From Hysterium pulicare CBS 123377 (lineage: Eukaryota > Ascomycota > Dothideomycetes > Hysteriales > Hysteriaceae): 43,175 nt of DNA. The notes under the pieces were generated by a model that did no database searches, had not been told where the DNA came from, and saw only the letters and a list, made by a program, of their open reading frames with translations. The stretch lies in NCBI GenBank assembly GCA_000467715.1, contig AJFK01000893.1, forward strand, positions 1-43,175, in the 5' to 3' direction. This document shows positions 13,278 to 42,817 of this stretch, in pieces. A program made the position numbers and the translations under genes. The number at the start of each line of letters is the position of its first letter. Positions within the stretch are counted from its first letter, which is position 1.

Positions 13278-16200
13278 TCATCCCTCCAACTTCTCCTTCC
13301 TTTCCTTAACAATCCAGTCACCCAAATCCTTGATACTGACCCTCTCATCTAAAATCTTCAAAAGCGGAATAGCACTCTCAAACAGCAAAACAAACCAATT
13401 CCTCAACTCCACCGCAATCAGACTATCAACACCATACTCAGCGACCGACTTGCTCGCCTCAATGCCTTCTAACGGAATGAACAGTAATCCTGCTGTACGC
13501 TCCATGATAGCTTTTGTAACACTCTTCGACGCATCTTCAACATTCCCCGCTTTAATCGCAGTATCAACTGAAGCAGTGACTGCTGAAGTCACCGTCTTAG
13601 CACGTTGCGGCTGTTCTTCCGAAGTAAGATAATCCTCCATCGCCTGCACAAGATGAGAGAACTTCTTATCCGTCGCCCAGCGCGGAGGAGGTGCTCCAAC
13701 ATTTCCCTCCTTCTGTGCCATCTTCGCCAGTCTGGACGGTTCCAAGCAGGTCGTGATTTGTGACTCAGCTAAGGGATCGTAACCGTGCCAGCTCATAGTC
13801 GAGCTTGGTGGAGTGACAAATGCTGCTTCTAGTAATCTTAGGAAGGCCAACTCGCCGGTACCATACAAGCCGTTTCTGTAGATCATATTTCGTGTGATCG
13901 CCCTTTGACCGAATTCGCCAATCTCTGTGATCAGACCGAACGCAATGGCACTTGCGGGAAGGCCTCGTGCTCTGCGATACCGTGCGAAGGCATCTTGGAA
14001 GCTGTTGGCTGCACAGTAAGCGGCCTGTGTTGGCAGCGCTACCACTGCTTCAAACGAGCTGGTCATAATGAAGAATTCCAGTGGGAGTTCCTGTTCGAGA
14101 GTGACTTCGTGGAGGTTGATCGTGCCCTGGACCTTTGCCGAGAGACCGTTCTTCCACATATCGTAGGGAAGCGTATCGAATACTCGATCTTGAAGAACCA
14201 CCGCGGCGTGCAGTATCCCTTTGACAGGCCTGTGAGCCGACGCAGCTCGAATGGTATTGGAGACATCTTCCTTCACGCTGATATCGCATTGCGCGATTTC
14301 AACCCGAACACCACGGGATGCGAGGTCGTTGATGAGAGCGGCAGCTTCTGCGCTTCGAGAACTGGAGGCACTGGAGCGGGAGAAGACTGTTACGTTTCTT
14401 GCACCGCGGTCGACCATCCACTGGAGGATACTCCGACCCAACCCTCCTAATCCACCGACAATAATGTACTCGGCCTCGGGATCAAAGGTAGCCTGGGGTA
14501 AAGGAGGAATCATCTGGAAACGTTAGATCGGCTAGGCCGGACATCACGCATATTCACACATACCTTCACCATCGAAGCCTGGTCCTCATACGAGACGACA
14601 ACCTTGCCGACATGCTTCCCCTTAGAAAAGTAAAGAAGCGCTTGCTCGAGTTCCGAGACATCAAATGTCTTGATTGGAGCGATCGGATGAATCACACCTT
14701 CCCGGAGCATACCGCCAACCTCTTGCATTAACCTAAAATAATCAGCACATTACCTATCATAAACGAGGAGGTACTTACTGTGCACAGAAGTCTAAATCCT
14801 GAACGGCCAAGGTACTAAGATCAAATGACGAGAAAGTGGCATTCCGTGTAAAAATCTCCATGGCCATGGTATTATGATTCTGCACATCAACACGACCAAC
14901 ATCGATGAATCGTCCTCTGGGAGCAATGCATCGCCAAGTTTCATGCATCATGTCGCCGTTGGAACTACTGAGTATAACATTGAATCCTTTATTGGCCGTC
15001 GCCGACATCAATTTCGGAATGTCAGTTGTATCGCGAGACGAAAATATTCGCTCTCTTGGGATACAGCAGTTCTCGACGAGGTATTGAGCTTTCTCTTCCG
15101 TGCCTACAGTGGCGAATATCTCACTACCAATGCTTTGGGCAATTTGGATTGCGGCAAGGCCTACTCCTCCAGTTGCGGATTGTATGAGGACTCTTTCGCC
15201 CTTTCGAATGTTGGCAAGGTGTTTCAGGGCGTATGTTGCTGTGCAGAAAACCATTGGCATCGATGCCATGTCAGAAAACTTAGCAGTCGGCGCCATTCGC
15301 TGGGCCATGGATGCGGGAAGTCTGTAGGAATTACCGAACTTGCCCCATGCAAGGGCAAACACTCGATCACCAGGGCTATATCCAGTGACAGATTTCCCGC
15401 ACTTTGTGACGACTCCCGAGCACTCGGCGCTGAACTCATTCATGTCGATTCTTCCAGCTGACACGGCAAGATCTTTCCAGTTGAGTCCAATCGCCGCAGT
15501 CTTGATCTCGATCCAGTCATCTTTCAAGGGATTCGAAAACGATTCGTCTTTTTTGAAGTATAGTGAGCTCAAGAGTCCAGGCGTTTCGAAATCAACGATC
15601 ATTGGACCTTGATCATGGAGTGGCATTTTCATCATGGCGGGGGTCGGACTGTGCAGAGCTCGGTAGCGATCATTGAGATCCGAATCTAGTACTAGTCGAC
15701 TGATATTAACGACACCATCGCGCATTGCCAATTCACGCTCGAAGTCGCCTTCATGGAGACGAGATTCTCGATGCACGATCTGCTGTGCGGTCTTAGCATC
15801 CGAATGACCAAAATTAGGTTCAAGGTGGAAAACTCCGTAGGATGCTAGAGGATTCTCGGTGGTGAGCATTCGGATCAGACCGGTTCCAACTGCTGCCTTG
15901 GGATCATGACCTTGCAGTAGCCCGCCGTCAGTAAGCCATAGTAAGGATGATGCTCTCCGGATCACTTCTTTGACTCGAATGTATTCGTTCTCGCCGCCGT
16001 CGACTAAGGTGTGAGATTCGAGATTTGCTGCTAGTATCACCCTACAGCCATGTGGGAGATCGCAGTCATCCAGTGTGGTCAAGACTGGCGTAATGCTCTG
16101 GTTTCGGAGCTCTGACGCCAAGGTTTCGTGGAACTGCCCAGTCTTGAGGTGATAGATGATGTGGACAGTCTCTTGCCGCGATTCCTCGGCTGGTGGGTCC

Positions 16201-19200
16201 ACTGCGGTGGTGACAATGGTCGAAACCACTTTAAGAGGAGCTTCGTAATCATCGAGGTCCACATCGATTCCCGAAAAGCCCGAGACTTCCAGGTTTTGCT
16301 GCCACTGCTCAGTACTGAGGAACGGCGAATCTTTATCCTCTTCCTCACTCCAGTAATCAGGGAATGTTCCGTAAGCGAGACCAAGTCCAAGGAGTGGACG
16401 TGTTGTCTCTAATAAGATCATCTTGCCCCCAGCCTTCAACAGTTTACGCGCGTTCTTCAACGTCGTGGATATGTCCTTGGTCGCATGTAGACATTCAGAA
16501 GCGATGACAATATCGTACTCTGATTCGAATCCTTGCTCGATAGGACTCCGGTTTATATCCAATGTTCGGTATGTGACGCGTTTGCAGTTCGAAAACTCTA
16601 CTTGGGCGGGTTGGAAGTATGCGCTGGAGACATCAGTGAATGTGTAATTGCTGTATCGCTTACTGTCCGTCTCGGCACCGAGTGTTCGCATCGCAATTCG
16701 CGTGGCAGCTCCAGTGCCAGCACCTATTTCGAGGACCTTCATTTTGGGATCTTTGTGACCGGCCAAGTCTAAGAGTCGATCAAGTTGAGGATATGCACCA
16801 CTGATTCCAATGCCGGAAGCGTAGATTTCGGTCAGAGTGTTGTCTTGGCGTGCGATTTCGACTCCGGTCTTCAACCCATTTAGGATATCGGAGATGTTAT
16901 CGAAGATGCGCTTCGTGTGCTTTATGTCAATCACATCTTGCATCGTGGAGCAGATTGCGTCAATAGCAGCTACGCGGTTCTCGCTGGGCATGACGCGTGC
17001 TTCTTCAGCATATGGCAAGTCCTTGACTGCCGCTCGTTGTACCCAGACCATGAACCTGCGTAGTGTGGGGTCCTGGGGGATTATGGTGCCATATGTTTGC
17101 GCGATCTCGGTGATCATATACATCGACACCTTCTCCATCTTGTCGAATGTCGACTGGACAACATCCAGAGACACTGTTGGAGGAAAGAGCTTCTTGGCTT
17201 GGTCGAAACGCAGGGTAGAAATATCGGGCTTCCAGACGAGCCTTGTGTATGGATCCGGGCGTGGGACTCCGACATTCTCTCCCTTTCCTCCATAGTAAGC
17301 CACACATCGAATCTTGGCGATCTCAACAATAGGTTCTCCAGCTTGAGTGAGGAGTTGTACGCTTGCATGAGCTCCTCGAAGACCTTTGAACTCGCCAACT
17401 GCAAGACCTTGGCCGAACTCCCCTTTATTGGCACGCGGCCACACGGTCATCTCGTCAATGAATACAGGAATGAATGCATTCTTGACCTTTCCAGTTTGAC
17501 CTCCATAACAAGCAATGAGCGCAAGTTGATGGCAGAGGTCCAAAGAAGCTGGATGAATGGCATAGGAAGATTCGGGGCCTTTGAAGAAACCTTTTGTTGT
17601 ATTCAGCCCCACCTTAGCCGTCGAAATGTTCTTGCTTGGGTCGGACAGAAGCTCTGACAAGCCTTGGAATGACTTGCCATAACCCAGACCAATCTCGGTG
17701 AACTTCTCGTACCAGTCTTCGATATCAATCACTCGCGGATCCATCTTTTCGTCGAGGCGCTTTAATTTTCGATCAGATCCAGCTGTCTTCGAGATAAGCC
17801 CCGAACAGTGCTCCGTCCATGTATCGGTTCCTTGGGTGACGGAGGCAATCTTGAACTCAAACCAGCTTGTGGAAGAGGCAGCCGCTTGCATATTGACCAC
17901 TATTTCGAGACCGAGGTCGTCTTCTGGTATACGCATTGCCGACTTAATAGAGACATTCCGCAGCTTGAAGCTGGTGCCTTTGGGATTTTCACCGCTCGCG
18001 CTGAGGAATTGCGAAGCAGCTTCGATAGCTATGCAAACGTATCCCGACGCTGGCAATACTGGGTGCGGGATCAACTGTTTTCAAGTCAACGACCACCCAC
18101 TCACATGTTCTATGGCTATTCCGAACTTACCTTATGATCCTTCAGCCACGGTACGTCTTTCAGCCGTAGGATGTTTCGCCATGCAGGTCTTTCTTTTGCG
18201 CAGCCCGCCTGAAGCACACCTAGGATATCGTGTCGAAGATGTCGTCTCTGTTTGATTTCTCGGCTGATCCTATTCTCATGGTATATCATAGGTCCAGAAT
18301 AGTTATAACGATATGTCGGGAGATCCACGCATGTGGTACCATGCACATAGCGTATTAAGTTGTTCTCGACACTCTCGACCGCGTTGACCATTGCCAAATC
18401 GACGGACGAGTTCAAGCAGAATAACGATCCGCAAAGGCTAAGAACATTCCTCATATCGTCACTGTTTCGTTTGAGAGTCGATAGATAGACGGGAGGCTTG
18501 ATTCCATGTTCGGCCTCAACTTTGGCGAGAATCTGCTTCAGTGGGCTTTGTAGTGCTCCATGTGGACCAATCTCAATCAGGATATCGACCTGCGTATCCT
18601 TGCCAGCGACAAGCACTTCTGCAGCTTGTGAGAATTGCACAGTAGATTCAAGGTTCTTGCGCCAATATGCTGGAGTGGCGTGTCTCTTTTCCAACTTCTT
18701 GTGCGGCGTGACAGAGGAGACCCATCGAATGAGAGAATTTCGTTTCGAGCTGTCGAGCTTTCCGGATGCATCGAGTTCATGAAGCCCTTGTTCCAGTAGA
18801 GTGGCGTAGTCATCACCAATTGCAACCATATGGTGCGAATGGTAGGCATTTCCACCGGTATGAAGTAATCTCACGAATACGCCGTCCGCCTTCAGCCGCT
18901 GGTGTAGTTCGTTGATGCGCTCGACATCCCCGGACAGAGTAACACTTCCTGGAGAGTTGACAGCAGCAACCTTAGCTTCAGACTCGATACCGATCAAAAG
19001 CGGGAGGACATCCTCGGCTGAGAGTCCAACGGCCAACATCAGACCTTCTCGGGCATTCTTTGCGACAGATTTGCCACGGCAATAAGCGGTGGTTATAGCC
19101 TCGGCGACGGACAGGTAGCCAGCTCCATATGCAGCTGCAATCTCCCCAGAGGAGTGTCCAACCGTCACTTCTGGAATGATGTTCCATGATCGAAGGAGGT

Positions 19201-31216: not shown

Positions 31217-33525
31217 ATGGAGCATCGGACGCAGTCTAACGACACCTCTTATCCCTCTGACCAAAGTTTCGAGCATCGTCACATGGAAGACCAGATCCAA
31301 AATGATGCTCAACGGCTTTTGCTGCCAACGAAAGGCTTCGACATCGCAGATCTACGAAAATGGTATGAAGAATACAGAGCTATTGATGGCAATATTCTGT
31401 CCCCAGAGTCTGCAGTCATACAGAACGTCAACGCCGATGAGCTCGATGTAGAATTTATAGAAAAACGCATTCATGAGTGGGCTTCGAAAAGCCACATCAC
31501 CGATGGATTCTGCTCCCAATGCCAGAGTCTGTTCGTGAACTGGCCACAATTAGTGGAACCAGGCCAGAAGCCGAATTGGGAGCATGAGGTTGGGCGCCTC
31601 TGCCATACTATTGAGCTAGAAGCGGCGGCGCGCAGTGGGTGTAGATTCTGTGCTTTTCTAATGCAATCACTAAGAGATAGCGACCTGCTCGACACATTTC
31701 GCAAGATTGAGACACGTATAGGCCATCTCAATGAGGCTGCAACGACGTCTTTGTCAATTGAAGCTTGGGGAATTGGAGGAAGCTTACTATTGTGGCTGAA
31801 CTTCCCGCTCAAGGTATGCAAGGATTGCAACAGTGGTATTGCTCAGTACAGCAAGTTTGAGTCAAGCATCATGCCCGCCCACGGTATGTGAATCAGAAAA
31901 AGCATCTTGAACATGGTTGACGCCCCAAAGTCAGTTGCTACAGTAAGCAGCGGGACGTACTCGATATTGCGAGCGATTGGCTGCATAAATGTTCCGAAAG
32001 CCATGAAGTGTGCAACAGCAACGAGCAAAGTACATTACCCACGAGATTGATATCGATTGCAAGCAATCCCGTCCGGTTAGTTCTCACCGATGGATGGGAC
32101 GCAAAGCCTCGATATGCTACTCTTAGTCATCGGTGGGGAGATCCTGAGTTTATTAAGCTCACTTCGAAGAGATTGGATGCGTTTCTCACAAATCTACCGA
32201 CCGAAACGCTTCCTAGAACCTTTCGTGAAGCGATTGAGGTTACTCGCAGACTCGGCTTACAGTATGTATGGATTGACTCCCTGTGTATCATACAAGACGA
32301 CAACAAGGATTGGCAGAAGGAGGCCGCACTGATGGCTTCGGTCTATGGTGGCTCATGGATCAACATAGCAGCCTCCTCTGCGACTAATGCTGACGAGGGG
32401 CTTTTCCTAAAACCACCTCACTTCAGTGGTGGACTTCGTGCGCGGGTCACGGTGAATGGCACTCAAATCGTACGAGACTTTCGAAGCCGGCATGTTTATG
32501 AGGAATCCGTAAATGAAACGCATTTAGCTACAAGGGCTTGGGCGCTTCAGGAGAGAATTTTGCCGCCCCGGACGATTCATTTGGGCAACCGAGGCGCCTT
32601 TTGGGAATGCAGAACTATGACTGCAAACGAATTTTTACCAGATGGGTTTCCGGGCCAACATGCTAGACCTATGGTTTCTGGGGCTACGAATACCCAACAC
32701 AAGAGTTTTTGGTGGGCAGGTATAGTACGGCTATATTCTGGTGCCCACTTAACCTTCAGTAAAGACAAATTGCCCGCCCTGTCCGGAATCGCGAGGCTGG
32801 TGTATACCCACACTGGTGACCAATACTTGGCGGGTATGTGGAAGGCAGATTTTGAAGAACAGCTATGTTGGAGACCTCGTATTCCAGGAAAGCGACCATC
32901 GTCATGGCGCGCCCCCAGTTGGTCTTGGGCATCTCTCGACGGGGATGTATTCTATGCTCCGGCCGAGTTCCCGAATCCCGACGTCTTCACAGACCACTAT
33001 ACTCATCTACTGGATGCCAGCGTAACGTTACTTGGGCATGATCCGTTTGGTCAACTCAGTGCCGGAATGATTCGTCTTGGTTGCTCCTCGCTACTGGCCG
33101 GCCGGTTCTCTAGTTCAGAGACTATTATGATAACGTACGGCGCGGAGGTACTGAGTATCAATGTGCGAAAAGACGCTTTGGACGATGGAGAATATGGAAG
33201 CGCCGACGTAATTTATCTTCTGCCTCTTCTTGGCGGGAAAACTGGTAACGGGTCCTATACTGAAGAAGGTAAACTCAATGACGAATATTCGCTGCGTGGA
33301 ATCCTCCTTCGAAAAGATAATGCCGCTATAGGCCGTTTCTATCGCCTAGGAAGTTTTGAGGTCTATAAGCACCCTCTGTGGCACAACAAAGAAGAGGGGG
33401 AATACTATCAGCCCATGGTTCGACTACTTGAAAAAGAGGGCCGGAAAGAGGCAAAGGCTGTTTGCGTGGAGGTCATTAAGAATTCTGAAAATCCGGAGGA
33501 GCCGTTTGTTATACACGTTTTCTAG
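31217..33525 (+). CDS. HET-domain (heterokaryon incompatibility) protein
   Basis: A HET-domain protein, the family that triggers incompatibility cell death or immune-like responses in filamentous ascomycetes. Exons 31217-31883 and 31931-33525 join in phase to 753 residues. An N-terminal region with CSQCQSLF and SGCRFCAFLMQSL is the Cys-containing leader often found before HET. LDIASDWLHKCSESHEVC follows, and the HET domain runs from about residue 284 with YATLSHRWGD, YVWIDSLCIIQDD, and the later TRAWALQERILPPRTI. The C-terminal half (about 200 residues, starting APSWSWASLDG) is normal for this subgroup. No NACHT, ankyrin or WD partner domain is fused. All landmarks look intact. It is unrelated to the polyketide genes in function and marks accessory sequence to its right. 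Confidence 0.93.
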
Positions 33526-34046
33526 TATCAACAGTGAGGAAGTGAGGAGGGAGAGATGTGCCACTCACTTACATCAATCCGGAATCAACTGCGCCATGAA
33601 GAAGCAGTTTATTTAGCCTACGTAACTTCTTTGCTCTATGTCTTTGCTTTTCCTCTTCTACGACTAACAAGCTCATCCTTACAATGTTCGTCGGTGGGGT
33701 CGAAGTCCTTTCTTGTATAATCTACGCTAATTCTTTATGTGTGAGGACATCGAATCTCTTGGTGCGCGTAATTAAATCGGGCGAAGGGGTATCGTGGGAA
33801 TGGTAAGCGTGTAGTTATGCAAACCCTGTCTAAGTATTACGGCCGTTATTTAATTCGAATCCGATCCAGAGAGACGCGCAGTTACTGATAAGTATTAATG
33901 CCGACCATAGATGGAGATCCTCTGATGGAACACTGGACCGGAGAGATGCGACGAGAGTATATTCTACCTTGACAAGACTCCTCGCTTAAGATCCAGCATA
34001 GAAAGATGGGATCAGGGCTAGACGATGGCTGGAAAAGTGCTGAATC
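33526..34046. other. Intergenic region 3' of the HET gene
   Basis: About 520 bp with no supported gene. One TTCGAATCC string near 33855 resembles a tRNA B-box but has no matching arms. Confidence 0.45.
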
Positions 34047-34600: not shown

Positions 34601-35250
34601 ATGGAGACGTCGAAACTCAGCAAGACAAAGGCCACGCAAAGGGACTTCGAAGAAACCAACCAGCCTCCAGGGAAACCTACTAAGATTCGAAGTCGGGACG
34701 AGAACCCTTCCACCTGCGTACCTGCTGAGATTCAGAACGGGAAGGGAGAGAAACCACAATGGGTGTAGTAATACGTGATGTTAAACCTTCAATTGTCCAG
34801 CACACCCAACAATACAAGGATATGCGGACGATAACTTCGACATCCGCTCAGGGCTAGATACTCCTCTAAAAACATATTACCCAGCTCAACCGGTATACAC
34901 AGACGGGAAGAAGAGGCGTCACAAAGGTCATCCGGAGGCTAGAGTCTTGTGAATCATCTTTTCGTCTACCTGCTAGATTTGAAAAGAGTGGTAATAGAAA
35001 CCTTCTCGGCCTCTCTGCTGAGATTTAGAAGAATCCCCTTCGCCTACCAGCTGAGATTTGGAAGGGAACTCAGAAGAACTATGTGACAATTTTGATGATT
35101 GTGAATGGTGTTATTATCTAATCATAGGCGCAGAACGTGCCTGGCTCCAAGCAGTCAGTCCAATAGTCTTGGCTCACATGGATAAATGCTTCAACAATAA
35201 GAGACGCCCACGGCCAGCGCATGCCACTGGATACACGGTTGGCCCAGAGG
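34601..35250 (+). other. Coding-like segments, exon structure unresolved
   Basis: An ATG at 34601 opens 54 codons reading METSKLSKTKATQRDFEETN and on to GEKPQW before a stop at 34766. A second open segment at 34821-34949 reads ADDNFDIRSGLDTPLKTYY and KKRRHKGHPEARV. A third, about 35127-35250, reads AERAWLQAVSPIVLAHMDKC. Each looks coding by composition, but no set of GT-AG joins I tried keeps phase. They may be exons of one gene with unusual splice sites, or a decayed gene. Hairpin array I lies among them. Confidence 0.3.
34643..35066 (+). repeat. Hairpin array I: changing stems around a conserved loop
   Basis: Five inverted repeats. GACTTCGAA at 34643-34651 pairs with 34686-34694. CCCTTCC at 34705-34711 pairs with 34740-34746. 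TCTTTTC at 34957-34963 pairs with 34981-34987. CTTCT at 35002-35006 pairs with 35027-35031. CCCTTC at 35036-35041 pairs with 35061-35066. The last four enclose variants of one core, CTACCTGCTGAGATTT, while their stems differ in sequence but stay paired. In one frame the core reads LPAEI repeatedly, so an eroded coding repeat is an alternative explanation. Confidence 0.5.
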
Positions 35251-36012: not shown

Positions 36013-36135
36013 AGGCGGAAGGGACGTACACTCAAAGGAAGAGAAGTAGTTTCTCAACCCTTCATATTGGCTCTCCTCTCAATTGCATTTTATCGATTTG
36101 ATGACCCTGTTTAGACCTCTACAGCAAACAGTATA

Positions 36136-36360
36136 ATGGGCCTAAGACTGGCAAAATCAGGGACAAAACAGCGAGTGAAAGAACTTGAGAGGGAGGCAGA
36201 GGCATCGTTTGCCCAGCGAGAGCTTGGAGGATGGAACGGGATGAGACCCTATCTCATCACGAGTGAAGAATGGGGGAACAAGATGAGACCCCATCTCATC
36301 ACGAGTGAAGGATGGAACAAGTTGAGAGATTTTCTCATCGCGCACTTGCTAGCACAGTGA
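36136..36360 (+). CDS. Possible small protein with three short tandem repeats
   Basis: An ATG at 36136 opens 74 codons. The first half is charged and helical (KQRVKELEREAEASFAQREL). The second half carries repeats MRPYLITSEEW, MRPHLITSEGW and LRDFLIAHLLA. The repeats coincide exactly with the hairpins of array II, so the open frame may be a by-product of DNA repeats. It could instead be a 3' exon of the preceding gene, since a good CAG acceptor (TCTACAG) precedes it. No function assigned. Confidence 0.3.
   Translation: MGLRLAKSGTKQRVKELEREAEASFAQRELGGWNGMRPYLITSEEWGNKMRPHLITSEGWNKLRDFLIAHLLAQ
36240..36339. repeat. Hairpin array II: three 7-5-7 hairpins
   Basis: GATGAGA at 36240-36246 and TCTCATC at 36252-36258 form a perfect 7-bp stem around CCCTA. 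The same arms at 36282-36288 and 36294-36300 enclose CCCCA. GTTGAGA at 36321-36327 and TCTCATC at 36333-36339 enclose GATTT with one mismatch. Units are about 40 bp apart and share ACGAGTGAAG between the first two. Confidence 0.7.
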
Positions 36361-36746
36361 GACTTTTCTACTCACTATGACAACGTCTTCCTTTGCTCCC
36401 TCCCTAGCAAATCTAGAAGTACCAGGGGCTGAAATATGGGCGTTTTTCAATGTATTCTGCGCATTGATGTCTTGAACTCATTGCGACTTATATGGTTTTT
36501 TACCAGCATGTAGCGCTTATAATCTCCACGGAATCGATTCGATCCTCTACTTCGACACTACGGTTGCGAAGAAAAGATAACAAGATCTCGGTTAAACATG
36601 GTGATATGAAAAAACCCATATGCGTGAACGCGATGTTTGCGTCATCGGTGAAACTGTGATCACGTGCAAAGTTAATTTTATGTCTATGCAGCGAAGGTTC
36701 CCTTCTGCTTTTCTCCCACAACATCACACACAAAATATATCAATAA
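36361..36746. promoter_or_regulatory. Upstream region of the zinc-knuckle gene
   Basis: 386 bp directly before the ATG at 36747. A CACGTG box sits at 36661-36666, and an AT-rich stretch with ATATATCAATAA immediately precedes the start. The promoter assignment rests on position only. Confidence 0.35.
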
Positions 36747-38467
36747 ATGTCTAACCAACCAACTAATCATTCCAATCAAAATATCCAACAAAGCAACCAA
36801 GCATTCGCCCAAACCAATCCTCAACCAGGCACTCCCCAGCAGGCTTTCCACCAACAAGCTGCTCAAGCTCAGGGAGCTCAAACTCAACAAATCCCCTATG
36901 CAAACTACCAAGCGCTACCTTTTCAAGGGGTACATAATTACCCCCAACAAGCTTCTTATCAATCTCCACCTCCTGGAGGAGCCCTCACCCAAATACAAAA
37001 CAATCAACCATATCAAACATATGGGCAAGACTTCACCCAGGGAATGCCTCAACAGCAAGCAGCCCCTGCACCTCAAACACAGAGCACACCAGTGACACCA
37101 CTGGCAACAAGCAACCCAGAGGATGCCATCCTTCCAGGCATGACCTATTCTGTTCGACAGTATAGGCCCCCTCGAGGCACCTATACAACCCAAGAAGATC
37201 TGTCCGCCAAGGGCATCAAAATAGGTCCAAAAAAGGACTGTGTGCGCTGCGTAACTTCCGGCCACAACCACTACTGGAAACAATGCAGGAACAGATGTCG
37301 TTGGTGCGGGATATTTGGGCATTTAGGAAAAGTTAGTGCAATACATCTTATCTGTAGGCTATCAAGATTCTAACACACGATTTCCAGGTCTGTCCCCAGC
37401 TTTACTGCAGTGAGAGTTGGCACCACAAGCATCTGAAAACCTCAGATCTCTCAGACTTGGGTGTCACCCAATTCAAACCAACACCAACAGAAGCCCAAAT
37501 TCTGCAAACTCATGGATTCGGGCATTTCACCCACCTAGCCACCGGTGCAGTGTTATTCCACTGGAATAATCCACCTTCATACTTACCCCAACAAGCAACT
37601 ACACAAGCAGCTCCTCCTCAACAGATGGCATCATATGCACCCCAATATGCATCACCACAAAACCCGGCATCTACAATGGGATTCTCTGCGCCACCGTCCC
37701 GTTACACCCTACCCTCATCACCATACCCACAAACGCAATCTCCCTATACGGTACCCCCTTCGCCGTACCCACAGGCGCAATCTCCCTATACGCAGCCACC
37801 TCAACCAAGCAACCAAGCGGTGTCATTCCACTCCCAAATACAAAGCACGCAATCAGGGGTACAAGCATTGCAATCGGGAATGCAGGCATTGCAACATGCC
37901 ACACCAATTGCTCCTGCGGCGTCATCATTTGGCCAGCTGGCCACTTCGAGCAGCCAGGGTATGCCGATGCCTTCCAAAGCTCACCAGGAAGGGTATGAAC
38001 TCGGGTGGAGACATAGGGACCTGCTTTCTGAGCAGGAGCAACTAACATATGATGTTCTGGGGTGGAGGAATACCGGTGGAGGACATTTGCTCAATCCAAA
38101 CCCTCCCATGCAAACGCAACAAGCACTACATCCACTTGGGCCATTCATCCCTCAGCAAAATCTACCAACAGGGTTACCCGCATCTAAATCAATGCAGTAC
38201 CAGCCTGGGTTAATGCTTCCACCCCACAATGTACCCTCATTCACACCGGTGCAGAATCTACCGCCTGCATATGGGCTGCAGCCACCTCCTTTCAATGCGC
38301 TGCCATCCCCATCAATGCAAATCCAACCTCCTCAATCTAGCTTGATGCTCCCTTCCTCCAACGCATCTACATCCACCCAAATGCAACAACCAGGCATCCT
38401 TGCTCCACCAGATCAAACTCAGGGGCAAGATGCGCGGGGAAGCAGTTACCAGCGGCGTCATGCCTAG
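36747..38467 (+). CDS. Pro/Gln-rich protein with two zinc knuckles
   Basis: Two exons, 36747-37331 and 37388-38467, join in phase 0 to 554 residues. About 135 residues of Gln/Pro/Asn-rich sequence come first (QPTNHSNQNIQQSNQAF). Two adjacent Cys/His modules follow near residues 167-201. The first is a variant (C-x2-C-x4-H-x6-C in CVRCVTSGHNHYWKQC). The second, formed across the intron, is a canonical CCHC knuckle C-x2-C-x4-H-x4-C (CRWCGIFGHLGKVC). The long C-terminus is again Pro/Gln/Ser-rich with repeats such as SPYPQTQSPYTVPP. Zinc knuckles usually bind single-stranded RNA or DNA, and the flanks are prion-like in composition. An RNA-binding, condensate-forming protein is a reasonable inference. 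No reverse transcriptase, integrase or protease lies nearby, so a Gag protein is not supported. Confidence 0.75.
37718..37801 (+). repeat. Two-copy 42-bp coding repeat
   Basis: Two adjacent 42-bp units within the zinc-knuckle gene encode SPYPQTQSPYTVPP and SPYPQAQSPYTQPP. The unit length is a multiple of three, so the frame is kept. Confidence 0.8.
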
Positions 38468-38515
38468 GATGAAGACTTGGGGGATCAATAACGGAGCGGA
38501 GTGGCCAGGTATCAG

Positions 38516-38898
38516 CTCATGAATACACTATATTCTTGAGATTTCACATTCTATGGATATACCTTATCCATATCATTCAACGTTCTCGTGGATATACCTT
38601 ATCCATATCATTCAACGTTCTCGTGGATATACCTTATCCACCCATGGATCCACTCTATCCATGCACATGTTTACCTCAAGATTTTTCTTCTTGTTTCACA
38701 GCTCATGGACATCCCTTTTCCCTGAGTACTCAAGATTCGTTATTGTCCAAATGTACAGTCATGGATACAGGGTATCTATCGGTTCGTGTTCTTCATTTTC
38801 AGCTTTATTTTACCTATCAGCTCATGAATGTGTCTTATTCTTGAGATTACATTTTTGTATTGTTTTGCATTGTACGCATGGATACACCATATCCATTG
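38516..38898. repeat. Hairpin array III: nine short hairpins 3' of the zinc-knuckle gene
   Basis: Two alternating hairpin types begin 49 bp after the zinc-knuckle stop codon. Type 1 is a stem RTGGATA/TATCCAY around 5 nt: 38552-38572, 38588-38607, 38623-38641, 38761-38779 and 38878-38896, plus CATGGAT/ATCCATG at 38643-38663 with 7 nt. Type 2 is CTCATGRA/TYYTTGAG-like with one constant internal mismatch: 38516-38540, 38702-38726 and 38821-38845. Types 1 and 2 alternate with a combined period near 117-119 bp in the right half. Pair-preserving changes include A-T to G-C (first versus third type 1 unit) and G-C to G-T (38763/38777). Confidence 0.75.
38554..38640 (+). repeat. 35-bp perfect tandem repeat, about 2.5 copies
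   Basis: A 35-bp unit starting TGGATATACCTTATCCAT begins at 38554, 38589 and 38624; the third copy matches for 17 bp. The near-identity implies recent expansion by slippage or unequal exchange. Confidence 0.9.
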
Positions 38899-39275
38899 AA
38901 ATCGTAGGTGGCACCTGGGGACTACGCATAGCGAGTCGTTGGCGATTCGTACCATATCTATGAACTAAGAAAACCCTCATTGAAACTTGCGGCATCTTCA
39001 TCTTCGTGAACAATGTGTGCTCCGCACTTTTCAGCATACAGGAATTAACGATGCGCCCAGGGCCGGGTGATTCGTCCCGTCATGGCTGCACAATCAAAAA
39101 CATCAAAGCTCACATACCAGGAACATAGAATCCTATTAACCTTAAAGTTTCTTATAGCGATGGGGACCATCATTGCTACACCTCTGTCCTCCTGTCATGA
39201 TTTAACCCCAGTCGCATGCATCGTCATACAAAAGGTTCCGAAGCGCAGCACTTAACCTTCTTCCACTCATACTGC
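38899..39275. other. Spacer between convergent genes
   Basis: 377 bp between the hairpin array and the 3' end of the coiled-coil gene. No gene or repeat recognised. Confidence 0.45.
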
Positions 39276-40621
39276 TCAGTCCCGTTCCAACCAGAAATCC
39301 AACTCTGTCCAGTGCTTTTGACCTCTGAGCTTGTCTGGTATCGGCAGGATACCCATCTTGATTATCCTTTGCCCGTCAAGTTGGGCCAATAAAGCACAGA
39401 GCCTCTTACGGTTTAGACACAAGGCGCAGGTCCGTCTCTGGCCATCATCCCACCTCTCGTTTCTTCCAGTATAAATCAAGCTTCCGATACACCGAGGTTT
39501 TTTGAAATAAGTCTTAGTGTTCTTGGCGATCTTATTAAACCTTTCGAGGTGCTTTTCGTCTTTGTAACTTTTGGTGATGCAGGCTTGCAGTGCTTGAAGA
39601 GTCTTCGGGGGTATGGAGCCGCTGTCTTTCCACTCTCCACGCTCATCATTATTCTTGCTTTCGCTTGAGGGTACGAAAAGCATAATTTCGAACTCAAAAT
39701 CACCTGGTACCTTGAGTGCTTCTGATGTATTCGGCCCCCCGTGGCCGCTGCGCTGGGCTTCAGCAATTGGTAAATCAACTTGGTCGGGCTCAAGGTTCCG
39801 GTCATTGCGTGGCGGCACTGAACCATACAATTCCGGGAAGCTGTCTGGAGTCTGTCTGCGGAAGTCCACTGGTAGAGGAGAGAGCTCTGGGGAGGGCCTC
39901 GGTGTCCCGATGGATCTGATCGCTGAATTTCGTGGGTTCGCCCTTGGTAATTCGATAGCACTCGATATCGATGACAATCCTCTCTTTCTACTTGACGACT
40001 CTCGTGACCCTGCCTCACCGGCTTCAAGCTGTTTCTTCAAATCGTCATACTTTTCTTTGAGATTTCTGAATGCCACCTTCTTACTCTCAATCTCTTTATG
40101 ACTTCTATCGAGGGCATGTGTGAGAGTCTCAATGGTTTGGTCCTTCCTCGCGATCTTATCTTTCAAGTCGGTGTACTTTTTCTGAGCCTTTTCGGAGGAT
40201 GCCTTGAGATTCTCGATTTCTGCTGTGCACAGAATAGAGCGTTAGCTATCTGAAAGTCCTATTCGAGGTGGTGGGTTTGGTAAGAAGGCTGAACGTTCAA
40301 GGGCGAACACTGAGAAGGTGCGAGCTAAAGGGTGACAATTCCAAAGGTACCTGTGTGAATGCTCTCGAACATTGGCCCGCTTCTTCCACCTTGTTGGTTC
40401 AATTTCATTCCTAGTTGTATCTGCTCGGTCAACCGCTTAGATTTCTCGCGTGTCTCTCGCAATGGACTTGCGTCCGTTTGTATGTGAGATTCTGTCAGTC
40501 TGGGATCGATAGGTACATGTCGTTGGTTCTGGGATACAAGATGAAATGTGTCATGCGGTGGAGAGTTCTGGCTTTGCTGGTCTGTAGAGGATGGTGGACT
40601 TTCGGACCGAGATTGAGACAT
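39276..40621 (-). CDS. Coiled-coil protein with Cys-containing C-terminal domain
   Basis: Exons 40351-40621 and 39276-40222 join in phase to 405 residues. The ATG at 40621 is the first one in frame. Residues 1-60 are polar and disordered. A coiled coil follows over about 90-160 (EIENLKASSEKAQKKYTDLK, IARKDQTIETLTHALDRSHK). A Ser/Pro-rich linker comes next, then a C-terminal domain with RRTCALCLNRKRLCALL, MGILPIPDKLRG and HWTELDFWLERD. This C-terminal pattern (CxxCxxxxRxC followed by a Pro-Leu-Pro-like segment) occurs in unnamed fungal proteins I recall, with no function known to me. The intron of 128 nt is the longest in the window. It may be nuclear, but no localisation signal is clear. Confidence 0.78.
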
Positions 40622-41152
40622 TGTCGGCAATAAGCGCTAAACGGTCAATGAGTAGGGAAATATGTAATTTAGTGCCGGTGGGAAGTGGATAGGCGAAGGT
40701 GAAGAGAAAAAATAGTGCAGGAGTGAAGATGTTGACGTATCGAATCCTTGCGGGCCCATCACGTGATTCTACGTAGGCACATGTCGGCTGGCAATTTGCA
40801 GGTGGTCTTGACGAATGATCATGTGAGGTTATTTTTCTGGTTGAAGAAATTCACTTGTGTAGAAATTGAAAAGGAACGTGCTTCGCAATGGGCGAAGTGT
40901 CCCTGAAGGAATAAATCATATACAATAACACTTCCTCACTGAAGGACTCGTTTGCAGATGGGGTGAAGGACGACTAGAAAAGTATGAGAAATGCAAGAGA
41001 AGATACCACGTCTCGCCTGTCTGAACATTCGAAGTGTTGGTGTATCATCTAGAAGTCAAAGTCGCCGATCTGAATCAGATTAATGTGCCTACCCGTTACT
41101 CCTCCCAATGAACGTTCAAGACTGGTCGCACGCACGTCGTACAAAGGCCCGT
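40622..41152. promoter_or_regulatory. Upstream region of the coiled-coil gene with CACGTG palindrome
   Basis: 531 bp between the coiled-coil gene start and the cupin gene end. A ten-base palindrome ATCACGTGAT lies at 40758-40767, 137 bp before the ATG, a suitable distance for a bHLH/bZIP site. No gene is supported here. Confidence 0.4.
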
Positions 41153-41951: not shown

Positions 41952-42817
41952 TCATTGTCTCTCTCCCTTGACTAAGACCAAACATTCGTGTCCTTCTGGT
42001 AAATCGCCAAAAGGCCACACCACTCCCCTTCGCTTCAGATCCTCAATTGCCGCAAGAGGTTCGCCATGGTGGACGTAGAATCCCGAATCGGCACACGACA
42101 CTGCTCCGTTCTGGGTGCTATCATTGAATAGCGTCCCATGCTCCTTCGCAGTTCGTACATATCGGACTGGAGACGATGACATGACCTTTTGCGCATATTC
42201 CCGGGTGAAGTCGAGATTTCAAGCCTCAAGCCCGTCGCCAAACGCGCGAAGAAATGCCATGAGGGCAGCGGGATGGCTACTTAGAATGCCGAAGATTGGT
42301 CTTGTACCATTTGTTGTGATATTTACGAGTAATTGACGAAGGAGCTAATGAAATTCAATCAGGCGCTGGTCAGAGACACGCATACGTACGAGTATCCGCT
42401 CACTCACCTTCGTTGCCAACCCTTGACGTCGGTACTGTGGCCTAACGCACAGCTGTGCGATCCAGCAGATGTCGTGCTCTTTGTCTTTCCATCGACTCGC
42501 AAAAACATGGCCCACGAATTCCTCCCCTTTATACGCCCTGCCGCAGATGTTGGCCGCATCCCTCGGCATGCATTCTCCGCGAAGACCGTTCGCGGTCATT
42601 CTTACTCGGTTGCCTGTTGGAGATTACTAGAAAAAGCGTCAAGATGCGACGAACAATGCTTACCCTCCTTCGCGAAAGCACCCATGCGCTCTTCAGCGAG
42701 TTTGCCCCTGACGCCGTATGCCTCTGAAAAAATTGTCGCGGATTGCTGTAGCATGTCATCGGTCGCGTCCCCCTCGGTGTGCATCTCTAGACGAAATCTA
42801 GAGGTCGACGTCTCCAT
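41952..42817 (-). pseudogene. GNAT-family N-acetyltransferase interrupted by one in-frame TGA
   Basis: Exons 42664-42817, 42408-42613 and from 42344 downward join in phase. They read AYGVRGKLAEERMGAFAKEG, then NRVRMTANGLRGECMP and CWIAQLCVRPQYRRQGLATK (the acetyl-CoA loop QxxGxA type), then FGILSSHPAALMAFLRAFGDG. The frame then meets TGA at 42219-42221 (codon 162). It continues in the same frame as DFTREYAQKVMSSSPVRYVR, DSGFYVHHGEPLAAIEDL and GHECLVLVKGERQ to the stop at 41952. The post-stop 88 codons are well preserved and match the usual end of this fungal GNAT group, so the full length would be about 250. If TGA terminates, a 161-residue protein with the acetyl-CoA site but no C-terminal part remains. 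Recent nonsense mutation is the simplest reading. Confidence 0.7.

Follow-up and report, generated by a model that had tools for sequence, protein, structure and literature searches.

The locus and its nine stem-loops

The host genome comprises 37.2 Mb in 596 contigs, and the window, by which we mean the whole stretch of DNA analysed (43,175 bases), covers bases 1-43175 of one of them. The gene at 36747-38467 (Table 1) appears to be of the 'zinc knuckle' type, as judged from a CxxCxxxxHxxxxC motif that was spotted by eye and is complete only across the putative splice. Since the zinc-knuckle part had no convincing match in Pfam (best E 0.17) or in the PDB (best match terminal uridylyltransferase 7, E 0.02), we infer the label from this motif and call the gene zinc-knuckle-like. 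No paralogues were detected in the genome, where exon 2 has a single match, and no relatives were found in the viral contigs searched. The next ORFs, for which Pfam gave only matches below the cut-off, lie on the opposite strand, so that the array described here is probably located 3' of both neighbours, between convergent genes. Upstream of the zinc-knuckle-like gene, the window also carries a HET-domain (heterokaryon incompatibility) ORF at 32008-33525 (+) and three diverged 25-nt direct repeats with GCTGAGATT at 34716-35066, and two neighbouring ORFs at 13278-18074 (-) carry reducing polyketide synthase domains, with DH, methyltransferase and ER followed by KR and ACP. The HET and polyketide synthase domains suggest that the host is a filamentous ascomycete.

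Table 1. Coordinates of the features at the locus (window positions); gene structures are predictions from the DNA.
Feature	Position	Strand	Description
Second repeat	36233..36342	+	three 7-5-7 hairpins, ~400 bp upstream of the ATG
Exon 1, zinc-knuckle-like gene	36747..37331	+	Q/P-rich translation
Probable intron	37332..37387	+	56 bp, GT...ctaac...AG
Exon 2, zinc-knuckle-like gene	37388..38467	+	stop codon TAG at 38465-38467
Hairpin 1, type 2	38516..38540	+	CTCA-T-GAATA/CACTA/TATTC-T-TGAG
Hairpin 2, type 1	38550..38574	+	ATGGATA/TACCT/TATCCAT, 8 bp with outer T-A
Hairpin 3, type 1	38585..38609	+	outer pair G-T
Hairpin 4, type 1	38620..38644	+	outer pair G-C
Hairpin 5, type 1	38641..38665	+	7-nt loop when folded
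Hairpin 6, type 2	38702..38726	+	two mismatches, weak
Hairpin 7, type 1	38758..38782	+	one G-T pair; CAGGG at loop; 3-nt loop when folded
Hairpin 8, type 2	38821..38845	+	near copy of hairpin 1, loop replaced
Hairpin 9, type 1	38875..38899	+	ATGGATA/CACCA/TATCCAT
Probable convergent gene	39276..40630	-	predicted from ORFs

The nine hairpins described in an earlier note are present where it placed them, spanning 38516-38899 on a T-rich stretch of the + strand. The starting point given there was correct, and hairpin 1 begins 48 bases past the stop codon. Two types had been distinguished, which start at 38553, 38588, 38623, 38644, 38761 and 38878 (type 1, 7-bp frame) and at 38516, 38702 and 38821 (type 2); they were said to alternate, but their order is 2,1,1,1,1,2,1,2,1. 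As described, type 1 loops are mostly of 5 nt (four of six in single folds, hairpins 5 and 7 being the exceptions), the outermost type 1 pair varies (A-T in four of six copies, G-T at 38588 and G-C at 38623), and one type 1 copy, at 38761, has G-T in place of G-C. Each of the type 2 copies has a mismatch with four further pairs on its outer side, and the claim that they keep the same mismatch holds for two of them, which have T-T in common, but not for the copy at 38702, with T-C plus a C-T mismatch.

When the sequence around each loop is taken as a 25-nt unit, all nine units align gap-free as 10-5-10, and types 1 and 2 are therefore one family, whose members share a common descent. One inner pair is A-T in hairpins 1 and 8 and G-C in the other seven. 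Tandem Repeats Finder (TRF) identified a 35-bp tandem repeat of 2.5 copies with 100% identity at 38554-38640, and because the three type 1 copies inside it belong to one recent repeat, the array amounts to approximately seven independent units.

Copy number, abundance and coding potential

The array DNA has one match, itself, in the 37.2 Mb of the genome (the search skips very common words). Identical dispersed copies, which the earlier note had raised as evidence against its own reading, were sought in the genome and none was found among the matches listed. Within the window, no further copy with E below 1 lies outside the array, where six weak ones have E 1.5-7. The pattern TGGATA-N5-TATCCA occurs at nine genome sites, four of them in the array, compared with one for a control pattern. 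Allowing three mismatches, 170 matches per strand were obtained versus 64 for the reversed control, an excess that word composition may explain, and those outside the window formed no cluster among the matches listed. Rfam 15 gave no match at gathering score in the window; with E up to 5, the two matches in 36100-39300 both missed the array and scored far short of the gathering thresholds. Among the matches listed by a literature search, none described a comparable fungal array.

Defining a strict hairpin as at least six of seven Watson-Crick pairs around a 5-nt loop, we counted seven in region 38506-38910 (405 bp), whereas 500 dinucleotide shuffles gave 0.53 on average and 3 at most. Counts of this kind overstate independence, since the units arose by copying from each other, and what they preserved during divergence is more telling. 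In 200 kb from elsewhere in the genome, a non-random sample since it consists of contigs with pattern matches, the best of 1,920 overlapping tiles contained four by the strict count with any loop of 3-10 nt. The contrast is gone when G-T pairs are allowed (nine, versus 3.97 on average and 9 at most in the shuffles), and counts of 10 (at 15001) and 9 (at 34001) then occur in other window tiles. Hairpin families of at least four similar members were absent elsewhere in the 200 kb, and five families of three were seen in 200 kb, somewhat above the shuffles, which averaged 2.25 for 243 kb.

The second repeat, upstream of the same gene, has a 42/39-bp unit with arms GATGAGA/TCTCATC, is unrelated to the main array, and has a single match in the genome (36233-36342). 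Its hairpins at 36240 and 36282 are perfect, and the one at 36321 has one mismatch. Units 2 and 3 differ at all five loop bases and at 1/14 arm bases, and units 1 and 2 at one of five loop bases, with flanks that differ more. The presence of two hairpin arrays on either side of one gene may be a coincidence. An excess of 5-nt loops was not found genome-wide, as assessed in the 200 kb (11 observed versus 10.0 expected); the window holds eight such loops versus 2.2 expected, five of which sit in the two arrays. Two other perfect 7-5-7 hairpins, with unrelated arms, are located ~190 bp apart at 42577-42595 and 42785-42803, and another contig (L028, 1397-1525; C91) has a 39-bp tandem repeat of 3.3 copies with a 5-bp stem and an 11-nt loop.

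Two + strand ORFs are open through the array (38553-38963, 136 codons, and 38536-38844, 102 codons). Stops on this strand number 7 versus 15.1 in shuffles (2/500 as low), and the longest open run is of 129 codons (7/500 shuffles as long). A coding repeat was rejected, and the array judged non-coding, because the perfect 35-bp copies lie in different frames.

Arm conservation, base pairing and predicted folding

Divergence was measured on the seven independent units, leaving out hairpins 2 and 4 as near-identical tandem copies of hairpin 3. On average, two units differed by 0.235 across the 14 columns of the inner arms and by 0.619 across the loop (P = 0.0018 for arms versus loop by exact column permutation); for the three outer columns of either side the value was 0.5. 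The 15-nt flanks were 39% and 31% identical over 21 pairs, mostly near-random, compared with ~76% for the arms, a contrast biased in its own favour because the units are recognised by their arms; hairpins 2-4, and 1 with 8, are exceptions in having similar flanks. The arms are thus more alike than either loops or flanks, and the hairpin is the part common to most copies, whose flanks and spacing differ. Hairpins 1 and 8 differ at 7/37 positions, six of which are contiguous at the loop, and only at 1/31 elsewhere. No loop was clearly inverted between hairpins, the mean identity being 1.24/5 reversed versus 1.90 forward.

Among the inner cells, 58/63 are paired, and the cells that are not Watson-Crick are G-T (three), T-T (two), C-T (two) and T-C (one), A-C being absent. 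The inner seven pairs show two double changes only, both between near copies and both preserving pairing: one from G-C to A-T, common to hairpins 1 and 8, and one, across hairpins 3 and 4, that passes stepwise from A-T through G-T to G-C. In an event simulation, which rests on an assumed ancestry of the units, the amount of pairing had P = 0.006, 0.022 and 0.116 at transition bias 1, 2 and 6, and the occurrence of at least three compensated cells had P = 0.009-0.024. Column shuffles (500) were not significant for the covariation score (48), the cells paired (58) or the both-side pair changes (152), in tests that compare units of one locus in one genome. The earlier note had proposed that pairing is kept over sequence; it is true that most arm changes keep pairs, but the arms are conserved in sequence as well as in pairing, and the column shuffles lend the proposal no significance. 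Preservation of pairing beyond expectation is therefore suggestive under some models, and not convincing.

As a whole, the region is predicted to fold with z -4.03 on the + strand, -3.72 on the - strand and -3.61 as DNA, with 0/100 shuffles as good in each case. Folded singly, eight of the nine hairpins have z of -2.5 or lower, and hairpin 6 folds poorly (z -1.44, 19/200 shuffles as good). In the whole + strand fold, hairpins 1-4 form, with mean pair probabilities of 0.59-0.99, and hairpins 5-9 have values of 0.02-0.15, five of the nine being predicted to pair otherwise because arms of different hairpins compete to pair. Folding during transcription might favour the local hairpins. In the minimum-energy fold of the - strand, hairpins 1, 2, 4 and 5 form. 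Model scores were higher on the + strand for eight of nine hairpins, and these were discarded as evidence since the model had been made from the + strand.

Possible explanations, as folded RNA or replication by-product, and known systems

Our main reading, to which we assign a probability of roughly 35%, is that the array, some nine homologous stem-loops at a single locus, acts as folded RNA in a putative 3' UTR. Hairpin-sized units, for the most part, would have been duplicated into an array 3' of the zinc-knuckle-like gene, and this array would be transcribed on the + strand in the 3' UTR of that gene; the stem-loops would form locally in the RNA, selection would maintain their pairing beyond what mutation does, and they would affect, for example, mRNA stability, 3'-end formation or translation, presumably through a binder. 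Autoregulation by the putative RNA-binding protein of the neighbouring gene is possible. Proximity to the stop codon (48 bp), the T-rich + strand and the presence of G-T without A-C all point to RNA, but the folds of the - strand and of the DNA come close to that of the + strand, three G-T versus zero A-C are too few to mean much, and an ORF of 136 codons crosses the array. In addition, most RNA hairpins that are read by proteins show the reverse of the pattern in this array, where the arm sequence is kept and the loops vary. As a long shot, the two unrelated arrays on either side of the gene, each with unchanging arms and exchanged loops, would be its private autoregulatory set of folded sites, which its putative RNA-binding protein would recognise by shape plus stem and which lineages would re-invent using new sequences.

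On level terms with folded RNA, we place the explanation that the array is a functionless by-product of mutation, in which a chance hairpin was copied locally by slippage and short-range template switching, and switching between the arms kept them complementary. The 35-bp tandem repeat is perfect and recent, the loop block that separates hairpins 1 and 8 (6/6 contiguous loop-side bases) resembles a multinucleotide change, and a similar loop replacement (5/5 loop bases, 1/14 arm bases) is present in the unrelated upstream repeat. In a yeast study, template switching is reported to lead to arm homogenisation and spacer inversion, and arms longer than 9 bp were needed for inversions (PMC8604942); a second paper proposes template switching as both creator and maintainer of RNA hairpins (PMC8794818). 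This process can yield the pattern of the double changes without selection (PMC8604942, PMC8794818). However, no loop in the array is clearly inverted relative to another, and mutation by itself leaves unexplained the likeness of arms among hairpins that for the most part have unrelated flanks.

It is unlikely, though better placed than the explanation that follows it, that the units form a cluster of inverted repeats acting at the DNA level, in which half-sites ATGGATA, set apart by a 5-bp spacer, would be bound by a dimeric protein. Such sites would account for the conservation of both arm sequences and of spacer length with a free spacer sequence, but counts of exact half-sites outside the array for TGGATA-N2..9-TATCCA were 4, 3, 6, 5, 3, 4, 1 and 3, so that N5 makes up 5/29, and GGATA-N5-TATCC occurs 32 times versus 29 for N6. 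A dispersed DNA site is disfavoured because the 5-nt spacer is thus not preferred outside the array; moreover, the array is putatively 3' of both neighbouring genes, and symmetric double changes would be unexpected. Homology of most copies ends at the hairpin limits, as would suit a mobile-element fragment or relic, but one match in 37.2 Mb, pattern matches elsewhere that are unclustered among those listed, and no terminal repeats within 38300-39200 make this origin very improbable.

If selection maintains the stems, the locus would represent a compact array of stem-loops in the 3' UTR of a filamentous-fungal gene and would offer a ready test for autoregulation by a zinc-knuckle-like protein. 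If it does not, the array would be a natural case of replication errors alone preserving hairpin pairing, and a caution against equating pairing with function.

The array shares features with several known systems. As in template-switched inverted repeats, the arms are alike and the spacers are changed blockwise, but compared with the reported cases (PMC8604942, PMC8794818), the array shows no clear spacer inversion and has many copies together. A minisatellite with a quasi-palindromic unit is similar in its confinement to a single locus and in the 35-bp head-to-tail repeat, and differs in that most units of the array have only the hairpin in common, with flanks and spacing that vary. The recognition hairpins of Smaug/Vts1 carry a CNGG loop; the array resembles them in its short stems, its mostly 5-nt loops and its possible location in a 3' UTR, but CNGG is found in only one of its nine loops (CAGGG, hairpin 7). 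Multi-hairpin regulatory elements in 3' UTRs, of which yeast mRNA localisation elements are an example, likewise place several stem-loops by one gene, and the array is set apart from them by keeping the sequence of its stems while leaving the loops free.
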